Below, one piece after another: positions 18,722 to 33,614 of a stretch of 64,000 nt of DNA (position 1 is the stretch's first letter; every line of letters begins with the position of its first letter). The stretch is from Flavobacteriales bacterium. GTDB taxonomy: Bacteria; Bacteroidota; Bacteroidia; Flavobacteriales; Flavobacteriaceae. Location of the stretch: contig JAMOUV010000002.1 in NCBI GenBank assembly GCA_027067965.1, forward strand, positions 1-64,000, read 5' to 3'. The translations under genes were made by a program, and so were the position numbers. The notes below the pieces were generated by a model that was not told where the DNA came from, ran no database searches, and was given only the letters and a program-made list of their open reading frames with translations.

Positions 18722-19697
18722 ATAAACGCCGGTGGTTCGGCGGGCTCACCAGCCGGCGTTTATAGAACCGCACATGGCTTTTACCGGTTGGTAAGCGTGA
18801 ACATGAGTTTTAACGGTTGGTGAGCATGTACACCCTGAGGAAATCGAAGGGTCGAACCAACCGACTGATACTTTATAGAAACTGACATCACTTTTAACGG
18901 TTGGTGAGCTCGTCGAACCAACCGCATTTCTTGCGTATATTCGAATAATTGAAGGACCCCTTCTTATCTAAAGGACTCTTTTGGGGTAATGAGGGCTTGG
19001 ATTGCATCACTAACGCCGGTGGTTCGGCGGGCTCACCAGCCGGCGTTTATAGAACCGCACATGGCTTTTAGCGGTTGGAGAGCTTGAACACCCTGAGAAA
19101 ATCGAAGAGTAGAACCAACCGCAGTTCTTGCGTATATTCGAATAATTGAAGGACCACTCCTTATCTAAAGGACTCTTTTGTGGAAATGAGGGCTTGGATT
19201 GTTTCACATCACTAACGCCGGTGGTTCGGCGGGCTCACCAGCCGGCGTTTATAGAACCGCACATGGCTTTTACCGGTTGGTGAGCTTGAATACCCTGAGG
19301 AAATCGAAGGGTCGAACCAACCGACTGATACTTTATAGAAACTGACATCACTTTTAACGGTTGGTGAGCATGTACACCCTGAGGAAATCGAAGGGTAGAA
19401 CCAACCGCATTTCTTGCGTATATTCGAATAATTGAAGGACCACTCCTTATCTAAAGGACTTTTTTGGGGAAATGAGGGCTTGAATTGTTTCACATCACTA
19501 ACGCCGGTGGTTCGGCGGGCTCACCAGCCGGCGTTTATAGAACGGGATATGGCTTATAGCGGTTGGTGAGGTGAACATGAGTTTTAACGGTTGGTGAGCT
19601 TGAATACCCCGAGGAAATCGAAGGGTCGAACCAAATGGCTTGGATTGTATTGCATCACTAACGCCGGTGGTTCGGCGGGCTCACCAGCCGGCTTATA
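18722..19697. repeat. Mosaic array of palindromic intergenic repeats
   Basis: About 1 kb of non-coding DNA is built from three or four reused modules. Module A is a palindrome of about 41 bp (arms ATAAACGCCGG and CCGGCGTTTAT) at about 18722, 19012, 19214, 19500 and 19660, the last truncated. Module B is bounded by CGGTTGGT and ACCAACCG and contains CCCT...AGGG; it occurs near 18812, 18895, 19071, 19271, 19355 and 19582, some copies shortened. Module C holds TATTCGAATA and a small AAGGA/TCCTT hairpin. The A-B-D-B-C order repeats at 18725-19011 and 19214-19499. Frames open by chance through the copies are not genes. Confidence 0.92.
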
Positions 19698-19741
19698 CTT
19701 CAGCATACTTATTTTGAACATATCGAATAGTCGAATGAAAA

Positions 19742-21303: not shown

Positions 21304-21888
21304 ATGAAAAGTTTAGAAAAAGTTATGTTGGAAATTGCCAAATTGGCTATAATGGAAGAATTTACCGGTAAGTCTTTAATAAATAAGACCTATTATTTGA
21401 CATTATATCCCGAATTGGCTAAGGAGGGAGCGGTATTTGTAACTTTGAATAAAATAATAGACGGTGAGCGCATATTGCGTGGCTGTATAGGATCTATCAT
21501 TCCGCGACGTCCTTTGATTGACGACATTATTTATAATGCCAGGGCGGCAGCATTCATGGACCCGAGATTTCCTCCGTTAAGACCAGATGAAGTGGACAAT
21601 TTGGAAATAGAAATTTCCATTTTAAGTTATCCGAAAAGAGTGGAATATACTACTATTGACGAATTGCGTCGAATAATAATTCCTCATAAACACGGTGTCA
21701 TATTGAAATACAATGGTCATCAAGCCACGTTTTTGCCTCAAGTTTGGGAAAAATTGCCGTATTTCGATTTATTTTTCGAACATCTCTGCCAAAAAGCCGG
21801 ATTGCCCGGAAATTGCTTGATTTTTCATCCTGAAATATACATCTACGAAGTAGAAGAAATAAAAGAACTATGGAACAAACTAAAATAA
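21304..21888 (+). CDS. AmmeMemoRadiSam system protein A (AMMECR1 domain)
   Basis: This 194-residue protein is an AMMECR1-domain protein. Diagnostic segments are GERILRGCIGSI, ARAAAFMDPRFPPL and LEIEISILSYPKRVEY. The conserved cysteine in LRGCIG is present. The bacterial family is found with a Memo protein and a radical SAM enzyme, as here, and its biochemical role is not settled. The stop codon overlaps the radical SAM start by 19 nt, which suggests translational coupling. It is the first gene of the three-gene operon. Confidence 0.93.
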   Translation: MKSLEKVMLEIAKLAIMEEFTGKSLINKTYYLTLYPELAKEGAVFVTLNKIIDGERILRGCIGSIIPRRPLIDDIIYNARAAAFMDPRFPPLRPDEVDNLEIEISILSYPKRVEYTTIDELRRIIIPHKHGVILKYNGHQATFLPQVWEKLPYFDLFFEHLCQKAGLPGNCLIFHPEIYIYEVEEIKELWNKLK

Positions 21889-22889
21889 CCGGCAAAGAGG
21901 TATTGCCTAAATTTTATGAGAAAAAAGGAAATAGGATTGTATGTAAATTGTGCAGTCATTACTGTCAATTAAAAGACGGGCAAGTAGGGGTTTGCGGAGT
22001 CAACAAGAATGAAGGAGGAAAATTGGTCAATTTGGTATATGGAAAAATTGCGGCTTTACATATCGATCCGATAGAAAAAAAACCTTTATACCATTTCTTG
22101 CCCGGCACAACGGCGTTGTCCATCGGGACGGTGGGTTGTAACATGCAATGTTCATTCTGTCAGAATTGGCAGATTTCACAAATCCGTAAAGTGGAACAAC
22201 AAGATTATGTATCGCCGGAAGAATTGGTTGCTTTGGCACTGAAATATAAAGCCAAAAGTATCGCCTATACATATAACGAGCCCACGATTTTTTATCCTTA
22301 TGCACGTGATGTGGCAATAGAGGCCAAGAAATACGGAATAAGAAGTGTATTCGTAACCAATGGTATAGAGAGTAAAGAAGTGGTGGAAGATATGAAGGGA
22401 ATAATTGATGCGGCCAATGTGGATTTTAAGGCATATGACGAAAAATATTATAGAAGAGAACTCAAGGCCCCTTTCACGGTACGTGAAACGATTAAAAGGA
22501 TGAAAAAATCGGGATTATGGGTTGAAGTAACTACTTTGATCATTCCCGGAATTAATGACGATCCCGAACATTTGAAAAAAATAGCGGATTTTATAGCAAA
22601 CGAGGCCGGGACGGATACCCCATGGCATTTGAGTGCCTTCCATCCCGATTACAAGATGTTGGACAAACCTTCCACGCCTTTGACTACATTGGAACAAGCA
22701 TACGAAATCGGACAAAAAGCCGGTTTAAAATTCATATATATCGGCAATGTGGGTATGAAAAACGTAACCCGTTGTCCGAATTGTCAAGCCGCCTTGATTG
22801 AACGGGTGGGTTATCTGTTATTATCATACAAAATTGTGGACGGTAAATGTTATAATTGTCAAACCAAAATACCCGGTGTATGGAACTAA
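21870..22889 (+). CDS. AmmeMemoRadiSam system radical SAM enzyme
   Basis: This 339-residue enzyme is PflA-like. The radical SAM cluster motif CNMQCSFC places cysteines at about 90, 94 and 97, coordinating a 4Fe-4S cluster used to cleave S-adenosylmethionine. An N-terminal cysteine set (Cys25, 28, 32, 42) and a C-terminal CPNC...CYNC pair (302-330) look like extra metal or cluster sites. The sequences CPNCQAALIERVGY and GKCYNCQTKIPGVW are typical of this subfamily. It lies between the AMMECR1 and Memo genes with both ends overlapping. Its substrate is unknown; its partners are the obvious candidates. Confidence 0.95.
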   Translation: MEQTKITGKEVLPKFYEKKGNRIVCKLCSHYCQLKDGQVGVCGVNKNEGGKLVNLVYGKIAALHIDPIEKKPLYHFLPGTTALSIGTVGCNMQCSFCQNWQISQIRKVEQQDYVSPEELVALALKYKAKSIAYTYNEPTIFYPYARDVAIEAKKYGIRSVFVTNGIESKEVVEDMKGIIDAANVDFKAYDEKYYRRELKAPFTVRETIKRMKKSGLWVEVTTLIIPGINDDPEHLKKIADFIANEAGTDTPWHLSAFHPDYKMLDKPSTPLTTLEQAYEIGQKAGLKFIYIGNVGMKNVTRCPNCQAALIERVGYLLLSYKIVDGKCYNCQTKIPGVWN

Positions 22890-23683
22890 TAATCAGAAAA
22901 GCTGGAAACAGAGGTAAATTTTATCCTGTTACGGCCGCCGAAATTGAAAAAATGATCGGCCGGTGGAATAAAATTATCGTACAATACGATTTGGAGTACA
23001 AACATATTGTGCCCGAAGCCATTATTTCACCCCATGCGGGTTATATCTACAGCGGTTTTACGGCTAATGTAGCACATCGTATTATGCCAAGAAAAAAACC
23101 GGAACGTATTTTAGTCGTAGGGCCGTCACATCATGTGTACATAGACGGGATGAGTATGGGCGATTTCGATGGTTATGAAACGCCATTCGGTATATTGGAG
23201 GCGGATAAGGAAGGGATGGCAATATTGCAGGAAAAATTTCCATTTGTTTTTGCCGAACGGGCGCATTTTCTGGAACATAGCACGGAAACGCAATTTCCAT
23301 TTATCAAATATTATAATCCCGGGGTGAAAATTATCGAATTAATTTACGGAAATGTAAGTTATGATGATTTAAGTTCCGTTTTGGATTATTATAAGCAATT
23401 GCCCGGTAGTGCCATTGTAATTTCGTCGGATTTAAGCCATTTTTATCCGCAGGAACAAGCCAACAGATTGGATAATTATTGTTTGGAAGCCGTAAAAACC
23501 AAAGATATGTTTATGCTTGACCGGGCATGTGAAGCATGCGGAAAAACGGGAATTGGTGCCATTATTGAAACCGCCTTGAAATTTAATTGGCGTTCCGAAG
23601 TTTTGGACTATCGTACGAGTGGCGATATTACAGGTGAATATTCATCCGTAGTAGGTTATATGAGCGCAGCGTTTTATAAATGA
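22880..23683 (+). CDS. AmmeMemoRadiSam system protein B (Memo family)
   Basis: This 267-residue protein is a Memo-family protein, related to extradiol dioxygenase folds. All four metal-site residues known in human Memo have counterparts: His52 in SPHAGYIYSG, His84 in GPSHHVY, the His of SSDLSHF, and the Cys of ACGKTGIGA. I chose ATG 22880; a TTG at 22856 is a less likely start. It overlaps the radical SAM stop by 10 nt. It completes the conserved three-protein set. The reaction is not established. Confidence 0.93.
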   Translation: MELIIRKAGNRGKFYPVTAAEIEKMIGRWNKIIVQYDLEYKHIVPEAIISPHAGYIYSGFTANVAHRIMPRKKPERILVVGPSHHVYIDGMSMGDFDGYETPFGILEADKEGMAILQEKFPFVFAERAHFLEHSTETQFPFIKYYNPGVKIIELIYGNVSYDDLSSVLDYYKQLPGSAIVISSDLSHFYPQEQANRLDNYCLEAVKTKDMFMLDRACEACGKTGIGAIIETALKFNWRSEVLDYRTSGDITGEYSSVVGYMSAAFYK

Positions 23684-23727
23684 TAAATACCGGAGATTTA
23701 ATATAAGTCATTAATGAATATAATAAA

Positions 23728-23757
23728 AAACCGCTTCAATCGGAAGCGGTTTTTTTT
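23728..23757. terminator. Bidirectional terminator between memo and gapA
   Basis: A perfect nine-bp stem (AAACCGCTT with AAGCGGTTT) around a seven-base loop is preceded by an A-run and followed by eight T residues. It can stop the Memo operon on the plus strand and gapA on the minus strand. Confidence 0.85.
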
Positions 23758-31860: not shown

Positions 31861-33327
31861 TCAGGTTTCTTGCCAATTTGTACCGTCGTAAACCTTTAAT
31901 TTGGGTTTGCCGTTGGTCGTGTGGCTTCCGTCATCCATATACATGTCGCCCGTAGCGGGATTTGAAGGAGGCGTAGAAAGCGGTTCGAGTCTTATCACGG
32001 CATTACCGCTGATGTGCAATTTGCGTGCGGGAGTGGCCGTGCCTATTCCCACTTTAATCGGAACACCTACGGGACCTATGAGGAATGCATGCGGCGTATT
32101 GATTGTAATAGGAGTGGTAGAATTATCAAATCCCCATACAAAAGTAGCGCTTGCATTATTGCTAAGTTTCATTTTACGGCCGCCTGCCCAGGAATAGTCT
32201 CCCATTGCTTCATTTTCCCTTCCGCCGCTTACCGTACTCGAATTGCCACCTGCTTTGTTTGATGTTCCTCCACTTACAGTGCTCCATTTTCCACTCGCCA
32301 CATTGCTTTCTCCGCCGCCGATGGTGCTGATATTGCCGCTTGCCGAATTTTCCTTTCCTCCTGTAACCGTACTTCGTTTTCCACTTGCCATATTGTTAAA
32401 TCCGAATGCAACCGAAGTAAGGCCTACATTTGCCCAATCCCATTGGTTACTATCTGCATAGCCGGCCCGGATAGCCGCTTTTCGCGGATTCCAAATAAAA
32501 GCCCGGTGCGGTCCGTTGGGGATGGTTTGTCCTTGCGATGTCCCTTGGGCATAAATCATCCCGTCATTGCTAAGATGAAGCCGGCAAATAGGTTCAGTCG
32601 CACCGATGCCCACATTTCCGTTGTGTTTGATAACCATTTTTGGATCGTTATTGGGAGCGTCCAAATCGGTGGTTCTGAATTCTATACGTGAAGGGATATA
32701 GGAGGACGAAGTGGTAACGGGTTCATCCACCACAAAATCCATATGAGCGCCCCATTTATAGGCGGCTCCATTGTATCCTTGTGAATCATATGCGCCCAAT
32801 ATATCGTCCACCTGTACGGCTTGCAGGTTGTTCAATGTGCCGCGGGCACGCCGGGTGACAATATTGGATTTGTCCACCGGATTATCGGTAACTGTTTCAA
32901 AAACCGCATCGGCTTTATTCCAACCCGGTCCGTCGGAAGCCAGATGGAGCATCATGTAGGGATTGGTCGTGCCGATTCCCACTCTTCCGTTATTCTTAAT
33001 AGTTACCAACACATTGCCATTACGAATAAAATCGGAACCGTCCCAATAATCGGCGGTAGGATCTTTACCGAAAGATATCCATTGACTATTTTCATAGAAA
33101 TAAAAACCGGGCGAATTATCGGTTTGGTAAATCAAAAGTCCTTGGACAGGATTGGAAATGGCATTGCGTTGTGATTGCGTCATTCTTGGAATTAACAGAC
33201 CTTTGTCTGTACTTTTAATATCCAGCATGGCTGAATTATCGGGTGCACTACCGTCTGTGTTAATGCTGATTTGGGCATGGATTAAGAAGGGTAGCCAAAA
33301 GAAAATAAAAAACCAATTTTTTTTCAT
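31861..33327 (-). CDS. Secreted surface protein with YadA-head-like repeats
   Basis: This 488-residue protein has a signal peptide ([15 protein letters not shown]). It then holds segments repeated in tail-fibre-like proteins of Bacteroidota: [28 protein letters not shown] and [16 protein letters not shown]. Residues about 310-400 contain short tandem repeats of the form ASGxxSTxxGGxxN, as in YadA-type adhesin heads, which form trimeric beta-rolls. The end, [16 protein letters not shown], matches the same fibre class. No T9SS domain or lipobox is visible, so its anchoring is unclear. I chose ATG 33327 over 33354. Confidence 0.7.
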
Positions 33328-33614
33328 GACTTTATAAATTTTAATGTAAGTCAAAGAACAATAAATACTTATTAATTAATAATTTGCTTTAATGAAATGC
33401 GACTTTGGTTTATTTAAATGAGGATATTAATCTAAGAAATTCTATTATCGAAAGAAATTTTAGAGGGATAATTGGTCGTGAAGGAAGAATTATTGCATAA
33501 ATTTAAAATTTAATTTTATCTAATTTCTTTTTGTTTTATGGAAAAATAAATGATTTTCATTTTACAAAAAAAAGACCTACATTTGCAAACCGAATTGATT
33601 GAAAATAAGTAGTA

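Follow-up and report, generated by a model that had tools for sequence, protein, structure and literature searches.

AmmeMemoRadiSam, represented in NCBIfam by TIGR04335, TIGR04336 and TIGR04337, is an already known system of an AMMECR1-family protein (here A), a radical SAM enzyme (rS) and a Memo-family protein (B), the reaction of which is unexplained; the models of all three families are typed 'hypoth_equivalog'. To our knowledge, human MEMO1 and AMMECR1 have disease links and no known chemistry. Eukaryotes, as far as we know, possess Memo and AMMECR1 and lack such a radical SAM enzyme, which speaks against a single pathway for the three proteins. The abstract of the 2019 work of Burroughs et al. 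on the PCAD-Memo superfamily is said to link Memo to the modification of nucleotide bases and isoprenoids. The accessible part of PMC7159879 names 'Memo-Ammecr1 systems', with reference to Burroughs et al. (2019), and it places a related radical SAM domain within FtsH-ternary conflict systems, genes of which were not found among the annotated neighbours of the operon described here. According to the available text of PMC11081632, the iron of MEMO1 is held by H49, H81 and C244, and H131 and H192 are not ligands. A sequence-only reading of the present locus held that the reaction is still not established, and the open-licence literature bears this out in the portions available, including those of PMC7159879, PMC11081632, PMC10924467, PMC11528403 and PMC8683613, none of which assigns a reaction to AmmeMemoRadiSam.

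An overlapping operon

The window, by which we mean the whole 64-kb stretch of DNA that was analysed, encodes A (194 aa; 21304..21888), rS (339 aa; 21870..22889) and B (267 aa; 22880..23683) on the + strand in the overlapping order that had been read from the sequence, with 19 nt shared by A and rS (21870-21888) and 10 nt by rS and B (22880-22889). We start Memo at the ATG at 22880, which agrees with the family match; the TTG at 22856 in the ORF list marks the longest ORF only. Each protein exceeds the curated cut-off of its family, A with 178.8 bits against 99 (TIGR04335), rS with 360.9 bits against 220 (TIGR04337) and B with 211.3 bits against 26 (TIGR04336), and the corresponding broader matches reach 143.5 bits (PF01871), 90.8 bits (PF04055) and 156.8 bits (PF01875). 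The E-values of the three family matches, 6e-53 to 5e-108, exclude chance. In the genome to which the window belongs, one match was found per family, and all lie inside this single operon. The identification as AmmeMemoRadiSam stands, and the overlaps make joint expression of the three genes very likely. Downstream, a hairpin of 13 pairs at 23725..23755, found by a consensus scan and unstranded (listed as -), may be a shared terminator of the convergent B and gapA genes; it belongs to a class of terminator-like sites that does not exceed a shuffled background, with four found and 3.6 expected.

The radical SAM enzyme

The core of rS (residues ~54-291) resembles pyruvate formate-lyase activase and is flanked at each end by a block of four cysteines. 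The extra cysteine sets previously noted at both ends are indeed present, as C25, C28, C32 and C42 (21942..21995, + strand) and as C302, C305, C327 and C330 of a CxxC...CxxC block (22773..22859, + strand), besides C90, C94 and C97 of the CxxxCxxC radical SAM motif (22137..22160, + strand), and all 11 cysteines are identical in 123/123 aligned relatives. The AlphaFold2 model of rS (pLDDT 96.4) matched 3cb8 with a Z of 22.2 (VIA-align; 224 of 244 residues aligned), the next family being NifB with a Z of 16.9; the predicted fold is thus that of pyruvate formate-lyase activating enzyme (PFL-AE), with its CxxxCxxC. The best weaker family matches are to glycyl-radical activases and NrdG2, and the rS sequence scored far below cut-off with every curated activase model listed, TIGR02493, TIGR02494, TIGR02495 and TIGR04041 among them. 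The closest named relatives come from Bacteroidales MAGs, followed by Campylobacterota. Residue, signal and tree counts based on alignments exclude loci L032-L042, which contain other radical SAM genes; duplicate genes under two locus ids were dropped from the rS tree (L027, L030, L123 and L133) and, together with L242, from the signal and Memo counts.

Memo, its metal site and AMMECR1

Among the best-ranked fold matches of the AlphaFold2 model of B (pLDDT 97.7), MEMO1 (7kq8) came first with a Z of 33.0, and extradiol dioxygenases came next, with Z values of 13.8-17.4 across 201-214 residues. In a profile alignment, H49 and H81 of MEMO1 fall on H52 and H84 of B and the cysteine of the CG pair falls on C220, and these three residues are the predicted iron ligands. 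The His3-Cys site previously attributed to this Memo must therefore be corrected to two histidines and one cysteine, as follows from the MEMO1-iron structure described in the available text of PMC11081632; H133 and H187 of B are also conserved, as neighbours of the metal site. Equivalents of H52, H84 and C220 are present in 51 of the 54 distinct strong B proteins (57 rows, some still duplicated), the other three being incomplete sequences.

A carries the conserved motifs LRGCIG (58-63), D86-P-R88-F89 and L144-P145-Q-V147. The A proteins kept by 12 archaeal genomes without rS and B are changed in 12/12 cases at T47, I62, R88, F89, L107 and L144 alike, and each of these residues is kept in 47-49 of the 49 other A rows (46 distinct); among the separate A proteins some duplicates were left (49 rows, 47 distinct). 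R88, F89, I62 and L144 are accordingly the residues of AMMECR1 to test for dependence on Memo and rS.

Joint occurrence and gene arrangement

Across a phylum sample of 158 genomes, counted without regard to kinship and with a Memo called strong above 150 bits, a threshold that we set ourselves, A occurs only alongside rS (28/28) and strong Memo (28/28). The same sample holds 35 genomes with rS and strong Memo, seven with rS and no strong Memo, and four with strong Memo and no rS. Four of its 42 rS-positive genomes, all nearly complete and of one genus (G003, G008, G050 and G058), lack A and any Memo match, and in three further ones the sole Memo match is weak, at 72.8-77.5 bits; both groups argue against a single pathway. 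An archaeal phylum (110 genomes, including a Methanosarcinales archaeon) has rS in 94 genomes and Memo in 93, and all 13 genomes without an rS match also lack B, probably through a single loss; 12 of these keep a diverged A, which in six falls below the A cut-off. Archaeal genomes with an rS match that lack A (6) or B (4) likewise weigh against one pathway; all ten are 0.8-1.7 Mb in size, with completeness not given. Of 78 rS-positive genomes taken together, 43 drawn from the samples of the phylum and the family and 35 from the 80 named loci (mostly ones that had no adjacent A and B), 59 contain A and 71 contain B, with weak matches counted for B. Memo and AMMECR1 are fused as a single protein in 22 distinct genes, and in 24 loci the tree distances of A, rS and B are correlated (r 0.56-0.65, with 0/2000 permutations as high), a pattern that can arise from shared descent alone.

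The order A-rS-B occurs in 7/80 named loci, alongside other arrangements, and neither A nor B lies near rS in 60 of the 80 within the sequence stretch covered. The plain form of rS is rare in the host's family (2/149 genomes), where the only other rS genome, the sister genome G281, has A on another contig, apart from rS-B. The earlier argument that overlapping order implies joint action therefore holds for a subset. Given the rS genomes without A and Memo and the separate A of G281, the link of rS to A and B is not a strict one. As G281 holds rS, A and B at 76, 69 and 58% identity, we rejected acquisition by the window's host alone; these identities fall inside or exceed the range of 30-74% seen for the six further reciprocal best matches (19 stretches of G281, about 0.33 of 2.2 Mb, compared with the 64-kb window), so that one common acquisition of the operon genes may underlie both. 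Clustering of the neighbours of 111 rS loci yielded, as a clue to the substrate, no gene common to many genomes besides A and B. Pyruvate kinase (15 loci, all from the phylum sample), an uncharacterised gene (10), a small protein (6) and endonuclease III (5) recur in a few loci, pyruvate kinase and endonuclease III being named by eye. Elsewhere the contexts of A and B are mixed and include glutamyl-tRNA synthetase, ribosomal protein S2 and a QueE-like gene (by eye, with no family search).

A candidate exported branch

One rS clade, drawn from several phyla and delimited by hand from one midpoint-rooted FastTree tree, has Tat-like or hydrophobic N-termini in 16/17 members, against 0/115 outside it, under thresholds that were fixed after the sequences had been viewed and a Tat rule that accepts KR besides RR (L223 and L226 have KR). 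Only 2/10 of the Tat signals were confirmed by curated Tat models. The rS of this clade often lies beside signal-bearing Memo-AMMECR1 fusions, and in 12 of the 13 loci with a fusion and rS the export signals agree, ten having them on both proteins (four of the fusion signals judged by eye) and two on neither; the remaining locus was unreadable. By the same rule rS, A and B of the window bear no export signal and represent the plain form. From one clade, and from matching signals on two different proteins per locus, we propose this rS clade and its Memo-AMMECR1 fusions as a candidate extracytoplasmic branch of AmmeMemoRadiSam. A system working outside the cytoplasm would be surprising, because neither SAM nor strong reductants would be expected there. 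No exported form of the system is reported in the available portions of the open-licence literature.

Proposed mechanism and alternatives

We favour, at about even chances, a reading in which rS and the Memo-AMMECR1 pair share one target in the same compartment, to which the gene overlaps, single copies, fusions, co-occurrence, agreeing export signals, correlated tree distances and the folds of rS and B all point. The operon would then encode one cytoplasmic pathway, in which rS, as an enzyme of the PFL-activase type, would cleave SAM and abstract a hydrogen atom from its target, which would be either bound by the AMMECR1-Memo pair or part of it. The Memo iron, held by H52, H84 and C220, would perform a neighbouring step on the same target together with LRGCIG, DPRF and LPQV of AMMECR1. 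These catalytic steps we infer; what we observed directly are the three families, the conservation of the metal-site residues and the cysteines, and the joint occurrence, and the folds as predictions. The target is likelier to be a small molecule or a nucleic acid, separate from both proteins, than Memo or AMMECR1 themselves.

If the target were nevertheless one of the two partners, rS could modify, or place an alpha-carbon radical on, the VVGY of Memo or the LRGCIG of AMMECR1, and the modified protein would be the catalyst. We regard this activase-target pairing as possible but rather unlikely. It draws on the PFL-AE fold of rS, on the weaker matches to glycyl-radical activases and NrdG2, and on a V-[GST]-Y motif near the end of Memo, which has Gly in 58 and Ser or Thr in four of the 62 Memo domains that come from rS-containing genomes (L198 and L199 coming from genomes in which rS is below cut-off; 5/76 rows gapped at the motif, L167, L188 and L193-L195, were dropped). 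The glycyl-radical fingerprint RVXG[FWY] is exact in 23/62 of these, and the available text of PMC11528403, which gives that fingerprint, also describes radical enzymes that have Ala, Ser or Thr at the Gly position. Co-export of rS with signal-bearing fusions would, moreover, suit a modifier that is needed outside if its partner is exported unfolded. Against this, the C-terminal segment of the window's Memo is SVVGY (256-260) and not RVVGY, which does not match the fingerprint; a confident model places G259 in a beta strand (257-266) and not in a loop; 4/4 strong Memo proteins whose genomes lack rS keep the Gly; the fold of Memo is extradiol-dioxygenase-like; and four genomes have rS and neither A nor Memo. 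A glycyl radical on Memo was rejected as the main explanation on the grounds of the strand, the retained Gly and the Ser or Thr in 4/62.

Slightly less probable, in our judgement, is a loose association, in which rS would have its own substrate, AMMECR1-Memo would be a separate unit and the operon would reflect only co-expression under low oxygen. The many named loci with rS and no nearby A or B, the four genomes with rS alone, the detached A of G281 and the 15 phylum-sample loci with rS near pyruvate kinase are consistent with this. However, A is never found without rS and strong Memo in the 158 genomes, rS and B are jointly missing in 13/13 archaeal genomes, and the export signals of rS and the fusions agree in 12/13 loci. 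We consider it distinctly doubtful that the system combines an activase-target mechanism, with an alpha-carbon radical, or a modification derived from it, on V-[Gly/Ser/Thr]-Tyr at the C-terminus of a Memo that then works with AMMECR1, with a branch outside the cytoplasm in which rS is Tat-exported or N-terminally anchored beside an exported fusion; if true, its activase-target nature would have escaped notice because Memo differs from the classical glycyl-radical enzymes, and the rS of that branch would be a radical SAM enzyme at work outside the cytoplasm. Finally, it is very improbable that Memo is an iron-dependent, ring-opening extradiol-class dioxygenase acting on an aromatic substrate made by rS: the fold matches that class and the host has a cbb3 oxidase and so meets some O2, but Cys (C220) replaces the Glu ligand of the class in B, MEMO1 is reported to have shown no dioxygenase activity with gallate, protocatechuate, L-DOPA and others (available text of PMC11081632), and most of the 110 genomes of the archaeal phylum in which rS and Memo are widespread are taken as anaerobes, which makes O2 chemistry unlikely.

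Comparison with known systems

What is new here is the predicted fold of rS with its invariant cysteines, the dependence pattern of A, rS and B, and the candidate extracytoplasmic clade. A host in which Memo and AMMECR1 are single-copy and overlap with rS is a clean setting in which to find the chemistry of MEMO1 and AMMECR1, and our comparisons lead to specific tests, namely of the residue dependence of AMMECR1, of modification of Memo or AMMECR1 by rS, and of a second branch outside the cytoplasm.

Set against other AmmeMemoRadiSam loci, the window has all three parts of the system with no protein-level difference seen, and differs in its overlapping A-rS-B order, itself one of several. With pyruvate formate-lyase activating enzyme (3cb8, 3c8f), rS shares the predicted fold and CxxxCxxC; in contrast, it has an added 4-Cys block at each end (25-42 and 302-330), and its operon contains no canonical glycyl-radical enzyme. 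Class III extradiol dioxygenases have a LigB-like fold in common with B, but their Glu ligand is replaced by Cys220, so that the site of B is not a 2-His-1-carboxylate one (ligand equivalence from the available text of PMC11081632). Human MEMO1 (7kq8, 7l5c, 3bcz) agrees with B in fold and in its iron ligands, H49, H81 and C244 corresponding to H52, H84 and C220, and differs at the C-terminus, with VSY where B has VGY. The solved relatives of A, the archaeal AMMECR1 proteins ST0229, PH0010 and MM0484 (1wsc, 1vaj and 1zq7, molecules named 'hypothetical protein'), were compared by sequence only; they belong to the same family, and the LRGCIG and DPRF of A recur in its alignments to 1wsc and 1vaj.

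Results

The AMMECR1-family gene A (21304-21888), the radical SAM gene rS (21870-22889) and the Memo gene B (22880-23683) all lie on the forward strand and carry the NCBIfam names AmmeMemoRadiSam system protein A, rS and B. Each product exceeds its curated NCBIfam cut-off, with Pfam in agreement, and the genes overlap by 19 nt (A-rS) and 10 nt (rS-B), confirming the complete operon of overlapping genes described in the sequence-only reading. Its immediate neighbours, all encoded on the opposite strand, are of ordinary kinds: upstream lie apt and a kinase-like gene, downstream gapA, pfkA and a nagB-like gene. When B is taken to start at its first ATG, the 10-nt rS-B overlap is also present at L031, L043, L044, L045 and L048; the overlap is 8 nt at L046 and 4 nt at L047, L050 and L051. 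Elsewhere in the window, where Rfam gave no match at any position, 18725-19738 lacks a clear gene and holds five copies of a 79-nt repeat, beginning AACGCCGGTGGTTCGGCGGG, plus longer nested repeats; the contig start (1-320) is an 88-nt unit in tandem (3.7 copies, 95% matches); and 31864-33354 on the reverse strand encodes a protein of 497 aa that matches the UspA1 adhesin repeat at 33 bits against a cut-off of 27.

The three genes occur together at 16 of the 80 named loci compared (ARRANGEMENTS), seven of them ordered A-rS-B like the window; four loci have one of A and B besides rS, and at 60 rS has neither within the stretch covered, the flanks varying in length. At 15 loci of the phylum sample (e.g. 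L008, L013, L016) rS has a same-strand pyruvate kinase gene, identified by eye, nearby and follows it immediately in 13, in some after a gap of a few bases. The rS and B trees both group the window copy with that of G281, another genome of the family, and then with two Bacteroidales MAGs, in a clade that also includes Campylobacterota. Because the two trees place the window copy alike, operons of this type look to have been inherited or moved as a unit; across the 24 loci with all three genes, the A, rS and B trees are correlated in their pairwise distances. The 22 distinct Memo-AMMECR1 fusions are scattered over several places in the B tree, which implies more than one origin or exchange of the fusion.

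The host genome is 2.05 Mb and 98% complete. SprA and sorting tails of the T9SS type, both encoded in the window, together with the great size of the family, indicate Bacteroidota and probably Flavobacteriaceae. In the family, which is very large and was sampled as 149 genomes, one per genus, rS exceeds its cut-off in only two, the host and G281, where rS and B are adjacent and A lies on a separate contig. The host encodes a cbb3-type oxidase (a CcoNO fusion of 723 aa) adjoining butyrate kinase, which at L247 (G000:C32) immediately precedes it, and a second, shorter COX1-family protein of 444 aa. No reading frame of about 600 aa in the host matched COX1, while four of the six relatives compared have such a match (574 aa in G281). 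From this we infer a microaerobic or anaerobic lifestyle.

The AlphaFold2 model of B (pLDDT 97.7) matches MEMO1 best among solved structures (Z 33.0), followed by archaeal TK2203 (Z 17.8) and extradiol dioxygenases (Z 13.8-17.4). According to PMC11081632, the iron ligands of MEMO1 are H49, H81 and C244, and H131 and H192 form no bond to the metal. By alignment the ligands correspond to H52, H84 and C220 of the window's B, the predicted ligands here, and this trio is kept in 51 of 54 distinct strong Memo rows (>150 bits), the other three being incomplete sequences. Nine distant Memo proteins come from genomes where rS does not exceed the cut-off; three of them keep the trio (L187, L190, L191) and six do not. 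Strong Memo proteins in four such genomes (L183-L186) read CS for CG, with Ser after the ligand Cys, and are possibly paralogues.

For rS, the AlphaFold2 model (66 sequences, pLDDT 96.4) finds its best solved match in PFL-activating enzyme (PFL-AE; Z 22.2 over 224 residues, 2.1 A), followed by NifB (Z 16.9), and Foldseek is concordant. The aligned part comprises residues 54-291, which places both 4-Cys blocks outside the PFL-AE core. The extra Cys sets proposed earlier for the two ends of rS are thus borne out: the blocks flank the core, and none of the 11 Cys varies among the relatives aligned (123/123).

One set of 158 genomes from the phylum was searched for every part: rS exceeds its cut-off in 42, A in 28 and strong Memo (>150 bits) occurs in 39. 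All 28 A-positive genomes have both rS and strong Memo, although they are spread over only 8 families, so that the independent observations are far fewer than 28 and the Fisher values computed from these counts overstate the association. Strong Memo occurs without rS in four genomes, and rS without A in 14 and without strong Memo in seven. In the archaeal phylum (110 genomes) rS exceeds its cut-off in 94, and 13 genomes, spanning 2.5-4.1 Mb, have no rS match whatever; B is absent from all 13 and A is retained in 12, in six of them below its cut-off. Since the named control Haloferax volcanii also has A only, the same pattern, we take these 13 to be haloarchaea, and the absence of rS and B is probably one loss. 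Among the archaeal genomes that do have an rS match, the counter-cases are four without B and six without A; these ten span 0.8-1.7 Mb and may be incomplete. The 12 haloarchaeal-type A proteins (L203-L214) keep the LRGC-G motif and each carry T47R, I62A, R88C, F89G, L107V and L144Y (12/12), all at positions conserved in 47-49 of the 49 remaining A rows (46 distinct).

The most surprising finding lies among the relatives. In a tree of 132 distinct rS, one clade of 17 (FastTree support 0.967) includes all export-like N-termini: by our own rule, with thresholds set after viewing the sequences, 16 of 17 pass (L231, L236, L224, L226, L223, L237, L117, L122, L100, L115, L110, L111, L104, L097, L094, L093) versus 0 of 115 outside. 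In ten of these (e.g. L231, L236, L224, L122) a twin-arginine-like motif, which reads KR in two, precedes a hydrophobic stretch; the other six (e.g. L104, L110, L111) have a strongly hydrophobic N-terminal segment. Of ten N-termini tested, two exceed the cut-off of NCBIfam TIGR01409 (L236, L122) and none that of Pfam TAT_signal, L100 falling just under. Twelve of the 22 fusions pass the export rule; five more (L100, L111, L224, L235, L236) have signal or lipoprotein-like N-termini by eye, two (L115, L125) are unreadable at the N-terminus, and in three (L006, L086, L238) a signal is absent. None of 57 B rows or 49 A rows from separate proteins passes. Predicted export status of fusion and rS agrees at 12 of the 13 loci with both, the other being unreadable. 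Two genomes (G039, G120) each have an exported-type and a plain rS gene, with a fusion and separate A and B; G078 and G097 also combine fusion and separate A and B, with more than one rS match each, the one rS examined over its full length being exported-type in G078 and plain in G097. All exported-type proteins scanned (7 of 16 rS, 3 of 22 fusions) exceed the system's cut-offs. We therefore put forward this rS clade, often found beside signal-bearing Memo-AMMECR1 fusions, as a candidate exported AmmeMemoRadiSam system, judged from sequence.

Discussion

We favour a model in which rS and Memo-AMMECR1 work on one shared target. As the PFL-AE fold suggests, rS would abstract hydrogen to initiate radical chemistry, and the Memo iron with AMMECR1 would perform the neighbouring step. 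The simplest reading of the six A positions is that they serve the joint function with Memo and rS, since they are replaced in A of genomes that lack both.

Alternatively, Memo itself could be modified by rS, as might be expected from the PFL-AE fold, the candidate co-export of rS with Memo-AMMECR1 and the C-terminal V-[GST]-Y of Memo, which in 23 of 62 relatives is an exact match to the glycyl-radical fingerprint (PMC11528403). However, the Gly of this motif sits in a strand position and is retained in genomes without rS, and the window's Memo has SVVGY. A shared target remains our preferred reading. Four genomes in which rS is an orphan speak for its ability to act on some other target. These genomes, of one genus (L002-L005), contain neither A nor any Memo match beside their rS, which is adjoined on the opposite strand by a gene that by eye resembles a ribonucleotide reductase.

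The operon in the window is a typical representative of a system that is known but functionally orphan. It deserves notice as a compact version, present in single copy in what is likely a microaerobic host, and its comparison with relatives yields testable statements on MEMO1 and AMMECR1.
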